Assembly: GCF_009833125.1 (NCBI RefSeq) | Contig: NZ_QRCC01000008.1 | Location: 62,001 to 126,000 of the forward strand | Direction: 5' to 3' | Length of the DNA: 64,000 nt | From: Nitrosomonas sp. HPC101 | Lineage (GTDB): Bacteria; Pseudomonadota; Gammaproteobacteria; Burkholderiales; Nitrosomonadaceae | In this document: piece by piece, positions 56,460 to 58,708 of the stretch | Layout: the number at the start of each line of letters is the position of its first letter | Numbering within the stretch: position 1 is the first letter of the stretch | Program-made: the position numbers and the translations under genes | Notes under the pieces: model-generated | The model's input: only the letters and a program-made list of their open reading frames with translations | Database searches by the model: none | Told to the model about the DNA's origin: nothing

Positions 56460-57806
56460 TTATTTGTTTGTTTTGATGATGTTTGCTTGGGCTGATCCTT
56501 TGGCAAAGATTATTTGCACATTATCGCCCGCATGGATCTGCTGACTGTCTTGCAAAATGTTACCCCGGGCAGTATAGGTGATACTGTAACCACGTGCCAG
56601 CACTGCTTTCGGGCTAAGGTGAGCCAGGTGCTGTTGTTGCTGAAACAGTCTGAATTGCAGATTTTCCAGCCGGTGTGCCATCGCGCGCCGCAATCGTGCG
56701 GCCAGTTCTTGCTGGTACCTGATACCGGCCTGGATATCGGGTTTTGCAGAGTGCATGCGCCGCCCGGTTTCTTCGATCCGCCATGTGCGGATTTCAAACT
56801 GCCGGTTCCAGGTATTTTGCAGGCGGTCGCGTAGTTGCAATAAATGCATTTGCTGATGGCGGATGCGTTCACCGGGATGAATCAGCCGATGAGCAAGCAG
56901 ATCAATGGTTTGCATGCGGCGTTCGATATGGCGTTCTACCCTCTGCTGCAGGCGCTGCTGCCAGTATTGCAGGCGATGTAGAATTTCCTGCCTGTCGGGT
57001 GCAGCCAGTTGGGCAGCACCTGTAGGGGTGGGTGCGCGAACATCGGCTGCAAAATCAGCAATGGTAAAGTCGGTTTCATGGCCAATTCCGGTTACAATCG
57101 GGATTGGGCTGGATGTAATGGCTCGTGCCACGATTTCTTCATTGAATGCCCATAAATCCTCGATCGATCCGCCCCCCCGACACAAGATCAGAACATCGCA
57201 TTCATTTCGCTGCGTGGCGGTTTGTAGTGCGGCCGTAATTGCTGCGGCAGCTTCTTTACCTTGTACCGGTGCAGGATAGATCACGACGGGAATGGAAGGT
57301 AAACGCAGCCGCAAGGTTGCGAGCACATCCCGTAATGCTGCGGTGTTGAGAGAGGTGATGATCCCGATTTGTCGCGGAAAGCGCGGCAGCAGCTGTTTGT
57401 GCTCGGGGCTGAACAACCCTTCCTGCTGGAGTCTGGCTTTGAGTCGTTCGAATGCCTCGAACAGTACCCCCAGCCCGGCCTGGCGTAACTGTTCGACGGT
57501 CAGTTGAAATTCTCCACGCGCTTCGTACAGTGTAACCAGTGCCTGGGCTTCAACCTGCATCCCGTCCTGTGGTATCCAGTTCAGATACAGATTTTTATGG
57601 CGGAACATGACACAGCGTACCTGTGCACTGTCATCCTTGAGTGAAAAATACCAGTGCCCGGATGGATAGCGTTTCAAATTGGAGATTTCTCCACTTACCC
57701 ATAACAGAGGAAAAGTCTGTTCAAGTATTATGCGGGTATTACGGTTTAATTCGCTGACACGCCATAGTATTTTCTTGAGCTCGGGAAAAAAATCGTTATC
57801 AGTCAT
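56460..57806 (-). CDS. xseA: Exodeoxyribonuclease VII large subunit
   Basis: Catalytic subunit of exonuclease VII, which degrades single-stranded DNA from either end. The 448-residue product has an OB-fold N-terminal domain (LWVSGEISNLKRYPSGHWYFSLKD in part) and catalytic region (RGGGSIEDLWAFNEE, GHETDFTIADFAADVRAPTPTGAA in part). A long coiled-coil C-terminal region rich in Gln and Arg follows. xseB is not in the window. It lies next to the DnaA-box region, divergent from exbB. Confidence 0.95.
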   Translation of the reverse strand: MTDNDFFPELKKILWRVSELNRNTRIILEQTFPLLWVSGEISNLKRYPSGHWYFSLKDDSAQVRCVMFRHKNLYLNWIPQDGMQVEAQALVTLYEARGEFQLTVEQLRQAGLGVLFEAFERLKARLQQEGLFSPEHKQLLPRFPRQIGIITSLNTAALRDVLATLRLRLPSIPVVIYPAPVQGKEAAAAITAALQTATQRNECDVLILCRGGGSIEDLWAFNEEIVARAITSSPIPIVTGIGHETDFTIADFAADVRAPTPTGAAQLAAPDRQEILHRLQYWQQRLQQRVERHIERRMQTIDLLAHRLIHPGERIRHQQMHLLQLRDRLQNTWNRQFEIRTWRIEETGRRMHSAKPDIQAGIRYQQELAARLRRAMAHRLENLQFRLFQQQQHLAHLSPKAVLARGYSITYTARGNILQDSQQIHAGDNVQIIFAKGSAQANIIKTNK

Positions 57807-57818
57807 GCCGGTTTATAA

Positions 57819-58015
57819 TCATCCACAATGACATCTGGTATTACACGATGAATAAAGAAGTCGGGATGATAACAATGATTTAAAATAAACTTTTGTTTTT
57901 AAAAAATTTATTCGGCCTAACAATTAGGCAGTTCAAAAAATTCCATGCCCACAATGATACTTATCCAACTTGTCCATGATTTATTCACACAGTTATCCAC
58001 AGGAATTGTGTATAA
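57819..58015. promoter_or_regulatory. DnaA-box cluster with adjacent A/T-rich stretch
   Basis: Three perfect TTATNCACA boxes lie within 35 bases: TTATTCACA (57981-57989), TTATCCACA (57993-58001) and TGTGTATAA on the other strand (58007-58015). A one-mismatch box, TCATCCACA, is at 57819-57827. Between them, 57875-57925 is almost all A and T, like a DNA-unwinding element. dnaA, dnaN and rpmH are not in the window, so this is more likely a DnaA regulatory or titration site than the replication origin. Confidence 0.6.
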
Positions 58016-58099: not shown

Positions 58100-58708
58100 G
58101 TGTTTTCAATCATTCAGGCAGCGGGATGGCCAATATGGCCGATCATACTGGCTTCCGTCCTGGCAGTGGGTATTATCGGTGAACGTTTGTGGAGTCTGCG
58201 CCGCTCAAAAGTCTCTCCGCGGGATCTGTTGCCAAGAGTGCTGCAGGAATATCGGCGTTCCGGCGTGCATGCCGATACGCTGACTCGTCTGCAGGAACAT
58301 TCGCCACTCGGACAGGTTTTAGCGGCAGGGTTGAAAAATATCGACAGCCCGCGTGAGACCATGAAGGAATCAATCGAGGAAGCCGGGCGCGTGGCTGCCC
58401 ATGAACTGGAACGTTATCTCACCACATTAGGGACGATTGCCTCACTCAGTCCGTTGATGGGGCTGTTCGGCACTTTGATTGGTATGATCGAGATTTTTGG
58501 ATCAGGCACTCCGACCGGTGGTAATCCGGTACAACTTGCTCATGGAATTTCAGTTGCTCTGTATAATGCCGCGTTCGGTATTCTGGTGGCTATTCCCAGC
58601 ATCGTTTTTTACCGGTATTTCCGCGCCAAGGTGGATGAGCTGGTGCTGGAAATGGAGCTGCAGGCGCTTAAACTGGTTGAAGTGGTACACGGTGAGCGGC
58701 GTATCTGA
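58100..58708 (+). CDS. exbB: ExbB/TolQ/MotA-type proton channel subunit
   Basis: Inner-membrane ion-channel subunit that energises TonB-dependent import or the Tol system. The 202-residue product has an N-terminal helix, a large cytoplasmic loop, and the paired helices containing LTTLGTIASLSPLMGLFGTLIGMI and ISVALYNAAFGILVAIPSI, the MotA/TolQ/ExbB signature. GTG 58100 follows AAGGGGA. The exbD gene that normally follows is missing; hpnA comes next instead. Confidence 0.88.
   Translation: MFSIIQAAGWPIWPIILASVLAVGIIGERLWSLRRSKVSPRDLLPRVLQEYRRSGVHADTLTRLQEHSPLGQVLAAGLKNIDSPRETMKESIEEAGRVAAHELERYLTTLGTIASLSPLMGLFGTLIGMIEIFGSGTPTGGNPVQLAHGISVALYNAAFGILVAIPSIVFYRYFRAKVDELVLEMELQALKLVEVVHGERRI

Follow-up and report, generated by a model that had tools for sequence, protein, structure and literature searches.

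The non-coding region between xseA and a divergent MotA/TolQ/ExbB-family gene of Nitrosomonas sp. HPC101 contains an element that is probably a DARS-type DnaA nucleotide-switch site, i.e., a site that most likely reactivates ADP-DnaA together with IHF and perhaps Fis. We base this reading on the geometry of a core of three DnaA boxes and on accessory sites at fixed offsets from it. How DNA sites reactivate DnaA is understood mechanistically mainly from work on E. coli. The element was analyzed in a window of 64 kb (the whole stretch of DNA studied), which is part of contig C8 in a genome of 2.52 Mb and 31 contigs. Among the named loci used for comparison, the closest XseA was that of Nitrosomonas eutropha (78%).

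The original prediction had described three perfect DnaA boxes in 35 bases between xseA and exbB, accompanied by a one-mismatch box and an A/T-rich stretch and located away from dnaA. All of this was found again (Table 1). The divergent gene is a PF01618-family member, and none of the TolQ or ExbB models reached its cut-off in a profile search. The site is outside oriC, as dnaA is on another contig (C14). The perfect box TTATNCACA occurs four times in the window, three of these copies being in the element (57981+, 57993+ and 58007−). Dinucleotide shuffles gave 2.31 copies per 64 kb, i.e., about one per 28 kb, close to the predicted chance rate of about one per 30 kb. The window total was hence ordinary, with 22 of 100 shuffles reaching four copies. 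In contrast, the perfect triple at the spacing of the element was found once in the window and in none of 200 single-base shuffles of the window, which bears out the claim that the cluster is non-random. The prediction had not included the orientation and spacing of the boxes, nor that the extra box and the A/T-rich stretch have fixed positions in a conserved element, where they are explained as box IV and the IHF-like region, respectively.

Table 1 Features of the element and its flanking genes. Positions refer to the 64-kb window; offsets (+n) are distances from box I with the element read on the minus strand.
Feature	Position	Strand	Offset	Description
Whole element	57819..58015	(-)		Minus-strand reading, from box I (58015) to box IV (57819)
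DnaA box I, TTATACACA	58007..58015	(-)		Perfect; no variation between the window and six close relatives
DnaA box II, TTATCCACA	57993..58001	(+)		Perfect; inverted relative to box I; 5-nt spacer
DnaA box III, TTATTCACA	57981..57989	(+)		Perfect; same direction as box II; 3-nt spacer
Fis-consensus-like palindrome, GCCTAATTGTTAGGC	57915..57929		+86	At most 1 mismatch
IHF-consensus-like site, AAACAAAAGTTTA	57886..57898	(-)	+117	1 mismatch to WATCARNNNNTTR
A/T-rich stretch	57865..57915			82% A+T; encloses the IHF-like site
DnaA box IV, TCATCCACA	57819..57827	(+)	+188	1 mismatch
xseA, exodeoxyribonuclease VII large subunit	56460..57806	(-)		TIGR00237 above cut-off
MotA/TolQ/ExbB-family gene	58100..58708	(+)		PF01618; divergent from xseA

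On the minus strand, the core reads TTATACACA-ATTCC-TGTGGATAA-CTG-TGTGAATAA. Box I, a 5-nt spacer, the inverted box II, a 3-nt spacer and box III follow each other as in E. coli DARS1 and DARS2, and the distances between box starts, 14 and 12, equal those in the MG1655 sequences of both sites. Equal box spacing together with an opposed box I is the common structure of DARS1 and DARS2 according to passages of a 2017 review (PMC5742627), and it is this three-box core that we found in Nitrosomonas. The 35-base core was identical to DARS1 at 29 positions and to DARS2 at 26, compared with 24 of 35 between DARS1 and DARS2 themselves. When both gaps were left free between 0 and 30 nt in the genomes of the genus, 63 of 67 exact-box matches had the 5/3 gaps (41 of 85 genomes, counted by hand).

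Neither E. coli site matches the whole element. DARS1 (bioD-uvrB) shares box order, orientation, both spacer lengths and also the ATTCC spacer. However, it has other neighbor genes, and the 300 bp examined contained no IHF match at ≤1 mismatch and a sole distal box (one mismatch) at +223. DARS2 (rppH-mutH) shares the core geometry, followed downstream by sites resembling those of IHF and Fis and by a distal DnaA box; it requires IHF and Fis, as stated in parts of PMC4245941. Its IHF-like sites are at +93 (minus strand) and +109 (plus strand), whereas those of the element family are near +117 to +122, and its distal box V at +211 is on the opposite strand from box IV of the element. Moreover, the essential Fis sites FBS2-3 of DARS2 lie near box V, beyond IHF (a position inferred from passages of PMC8682772 and PMC4245941), in contrast to the Fis-consensus site found here between core and IHF site. 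The neighborhoods, i.e., mutH versus xseA and the exbB-like gene, differ as well. Strict identity with E. coli DARS2 was therefore rejected. DARS2 was still moderately active with IBS1-2 shifted 10 bp further from the core (passages of PMC4245941). The genes that flank the DARS sites in E. coli (uvrB, bioD, mutH, rppH, ptsP, ygdQ) were all absent at E 1e-6 from the approximately 1.5 kb around the match in 88 loci, and the E. coli priA-rpmE region had no DARS-type array at ≤7 mismatches. Upstream of mutH in E. coli K-12 (L157, 2452-2486), we observed a degenerate DARS-type array with six mismatches, for which a perfect IHF consensus, AATCAGAGAATTG, lies precisely at +119, as is usual among the elements of the present analysis.

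The core (≤3 mismatches) was present in 84 of 85 genomes of the genus, in 302 of 399 genomes of the order (125 of the 158 genera sampled) and in 179 of 229 genomes of the class; the reversed core pattern had no match in any of these three sets. In a separate search, 24 genomes of the genus were covered besides that of Nitrosomonas sp. HPC101. Upstream of xseA, 48 of 80 named loci had a 5/3 array (≤4 mismatches), with 5/1 in 14 and 5/5 in 12 loci as runner-up spacings, and the arrays had a single orientation except for one overlapping extra match in L248. In 65 of 107 loci, i.e., the 80 named ones and 27 others, an array in the same orientation was found no more than 1500 bp upstream of xseA; the 42 loci lacking it were dropped, some of them being ended by contig ends. 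Box conservation in relatives, proposed earlier as a check, thus held in many but not in all cases: within the genus, 11 of 17 xseA loci carried the array, and it was absent at ≤4 mismatches from the remaining six, one of which (L092) had an array with a 4-nt spacer. Of 30 loci of the order with a core array, 14 were at xseA, five at priA and 11 at neither, and 11 of 28 class-level loci adjoined priA; both locations, at xseA and at priA, are shared between families. The rows share descent, and counts across them are therefore not independent. The distance between the xseA copy and dnaA was not conserved (1.16 Mb in G020, about 0.31 Mb in G006).

We examined the accessory sites in 61 homologous xseA regions anchored on box I. 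The IHF consensus (≤1 mismatch) was found at 100–135 in 49 rows, compared with a mean of 5.9 and a maximum of 13 in local shuffles and with 14 rows for the opposite strand. Its best match was at 114–122 in 44 rows, and 25 rows had a mismatch-free site; the interval 114–126 contained a match in 47 rows. A minus-strand DnaA box (≤1 mismatch) occurred at 186–198 in 32 rows (shuffle mean 0.5, maximum 3) and in the wider span of 185–205 in 34. The mismatch-free Fis consensus at 85–87 was present in 21 rows (local-shuffle mean 0.67, maximum 3). IHF site and box IV were found together in 25 rows, and all three accessory sites in 10. In the window, the mismatch of the IHF-like site is in the WATCAR half (AAACAA), and a second match of equal quality is at +103. 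The window and six close relatives, of which G046 and N. eutropha are nearly identical to each other, had no variation in the box IV block TTGTGGATGATTAT, whereas the 35-bp core varied in two columns.

The same arrangement was found away from this set of xseA regions. In 26 arrays of other Gammaproteobacteria from the class loci, an IHF match was present at 114–126 in 17 (shuffle mean 0.51), a minus-strand box at 185–212 in 19 (shuffle mean 0.50) and both in 15 (shuffle mean 0.01); 18 of the 19 boxes were at +200 to +206. In the genus, 28 loci, nine of them at xseA, had 33 arrays with 19 IHF matches and 23 boxes. An exact pattern of core half, IHF site and box IV matched 111 of 399 genomes of the order, i.e., 62 of 158 genera, and none of the 399 when reversed. 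We drew 30 of these full-element loci (L344-L373) non-randomly from the 111 genomes and found priA as the commonest neighbor (27 loci, 24 with hemE and three with priA alone), the other three being at xseA. They contained 18 arrays at ≤4 mismatches, of which 17 had the IHF site and 15 box IV, partly owing to how the loci were found. Only one of these 18 had the Fis site, as did eight of 28 class arrays, and we therefore regard the Fis site as mainly a feature of the xseA set.

The strict pattern had no match in the Nitrosomonas sp. HPC101 genome itself, since its IHF-like sites are degenerate with one mismatch each. Two further arrays (≤3 mismatches) are nevertheless present there, one between dcd-like and penicillin-amidase-family genes and the other between uracil-DNA-glycosylase-family and GH94-family genes. 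They are accompanied by accessory sites with one mismatch each, Fis-like at +86, IHF-like at +118/+119 and a DnaA box at +188/+191. Together with the element at xseA, the genome hence has three arrays whose accessory sites deviate from the consensus by one mismatch or less, with the Fis-like site at +86 in all of them, the IHF-like site at +117 to +119 and the fourth box at +188 to +191.

The genome encodes DnaA (TIGR00362), Hda (TIGR03420), IHF alpha and IHF beta, all above cut-off, and an HU-like protein below cut-off. A Fis-like protein of 80 amino acids scored below both cut-offs (112.7 bits versus 122 and 82.8 versus 99). DnaA is identical to its E. coli counterpart at 251 of 449 aligned residues. 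It has kept D269, R285 and L290, which are linked to DARS function or DnaA-DnaA contacts in passages of PMC5742627, and has His in place of the AID-1 residue R227. With these partners, a reactivation cycle can be proposed. Hda would convert ATP-DnaA to ADP-DnaA once initiation is done, and ADP-DnaA would bind boxes I–III, where the molecules on boxes I and II would be opposed. The approximately 150 bp between box III and box IV would be bent by IHF, possibly aided by Fis, which would bring DnaA on box IV into contact with the core. The complex might then release ADP, and the empty DnaA would leave and take up ATP. With ATP-loaded DnaA, the cell would be ready for the next initiation at oriC.

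Alternatively, the element could work like datA, i.e., an IHF bend would join DnaA at box III and box IV, drive DnaA-ATP hydrolysis and switch initiation off. On the matching strand, E. coli datA has a minus-strand box, an IHF+ site and a second minus-strand box with gaps of 84 and 56 nt. Box III, IHF site and box IV in the window have the same orientation and gaps of 82 and 58, within 2 nt of datA, a tolerance that was set post hoc. In the 25 rows with IHF site and box IV, the first gap was 82–86 in 24 and the second 58–61 in 23. Four other E. coli stretches and 500 shuffled sequences contained no datA-type triple (gaps 80–87 and 53–62). Moreover, according to parts of PMC4585315, datA is active only with boxes 2 and 3 and with an IHF site at its proper spacing; the datA box numbers used here were assigned from the order given in passages of PMC5742627. 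Within the datA stretch, a single DARS-type array was found at ≤6 mismatches, overlapping the datA pair TGTGGATAA-CTC-TGTTTACAA (boxes 2 and 7), which also shows the box II-box III spacing. By its sequence, the element hence joins a DARS core to a datA-like skeleton. We nevertheless consider a datA-like function rather unlikely. Conservation is highest in the three-box core, whose inverted pair with a 5-nt spacer is the mark of a DARS, and the datA stretch has no such array at ≤5 mismatches. Box IV in the window is not followed by a minus-strand box (≤2 mismatches) at +200, i.e., an equivalent of datA box 7 is missing. Furthermore, the spacing match was noticed after the element had been assembled and is thus a lead more than a test. 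Whether it reactivates DnaA or acts like datA, the site would work on DnaA and not on the neighboring genes.

Beyond reactivation at this site, it is conceivable, although we propose it tentatively, that the element represents an ancestral module for DnaA nucleotide switching that is general to Gammaproteobacteria sensu lato, with datA, DARS1 and DARS2 as specialized remnants. This module might have combined the DARS core with the datA-type skeleton and, in many betaproteobacterial copies, a Fis site; it might often have occupied several places, e.g., at priA and xseA, and been multiplied in some lineages. If so, E. coli datA, DARS1 and DARS2 would each have kept part of the layout, and the shared layout suggests how these sites may be related. 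Specificity to gamma-proteobacteria related to E. coli is described for Fis and the DARS2 core by Kasho et al. 2014 (PMC4245941), whereas the 2017 review (PMC5742627, also in part) names beta- or gamma-proteobacteria. At the level of titles and opening abstracts, we found no betaproteobacterial or xseA-linked DARS; an earlier mention is possible, e.g., in the original 2009 DARS paper. Because the three-site layout of DARS and the sites at fixed distances recur in many relatives, a control of replication timing described mostly for E. coli could have an earlier origin and a broader distribution. The genera with the core (125/158) and those with an exact IHF site and fourth box (62/158) offer precise test sites, and slow growers such as Nitrosomonas gain defined loci for studying DnaA reactivation.

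The original prediction had left a choice between a reactivation or titration locus like datA or DARS and a DnaA-controlled promoter. Its DARS-like option stood, given the core geometry and the fixed accessory sites; the promoter option was disfavored. The element does occupy much of the divergent intergenic region, with the core 174–200 bp from the xseA start in many rows. By hand count of the named loci, the array was also present in 44 of 52 loci with a divergent exbB versus four of 28 where no divergent exbB was found in the fetched DNA. However, the same element adjoins priA in most full-element loci and other genes, i.e., dcd and the uracil-DNA-glycosylase-family gene, in its own genome. 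The distance between core and xseA varies from 104 to 1157 bp, whereas box IV, where present, stays near +190. Promoter and terminator signals at the element were not above shuffles (one promoter-like site versus a shuffle mean of 1.7). Control of xseA and/or the ExbB-like gene by DnaA through a promoter in this region is hence improbable.

Passive titration, with a box cluster that would only sequester DnaA, has a similarly small probability in our view. Perfect consensus boxes would suit it, as would the many copies in some genomes, with up to 22 dispersed arrays per genome in the genus (G042 and G043, 22 each). Simple sequestering, however, needs neither fixed spacing and orientation nor IHF or Fis sites.

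That the element is an origin of replication or belongs to a dispersed mobile repeat is highly improbable. Clusters of DnaA boxes mark origins, but the GC skew, suggested earlier as a check, together with the position of dnaA led us to reject an origin at the element. In the relative G020, whose genome is complete, the skew was sampled in 20 segments of 20 kb and switched from minus to plus at dnaA, with positive skew after dnaA (weak beyond 0.95 Mb) and negative skew before it, which places the origin near dnaA. In the Nitrosomonas sp. HPC101 genome, the skew near dnaA on contig C14 goes up from roughly zero to positive values, and contig C8 has no minus-to-plus switch at the element. As for a mobile repeat, copies in G042 share flanks, and the flanks of the two other arrays of Nitrosomonas sp. 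HPC101 look alike by eye, such that these two may be duplicates; against this stand the xseA and priA positions recurring between families. Of the 22 arrays in G042, 19 were examined (L218-L233), with an IHF match at 112–125 in seven and a box at 185–200 in four. A subfamily in which box II starts with C had neither IHF site nor box IV at the usual offsets and had its own common flank after box III.

Tandem arrays, three to seven per locus, were found in 10 of the 80 named xseA loci, i.e., in Janthinobacterium, Duganella, Pseudoduganella, Undibacterium, Massilia and one Herbaspirillum. Five to seven of them (≤4 mismatches) were observed between xseA and exbB in L286, L294, L303, L305, L307, L310, L234 and L235, spaced about 140–200 bp in the densest or checked loci, with one longer gap in L235. 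In G020 (L119-L120, 520–528 kb), an interval of 7.5 kb contains three arrays, and genes for a transposase-family protein and an ABC-transporter-family ATPase are located nearby.
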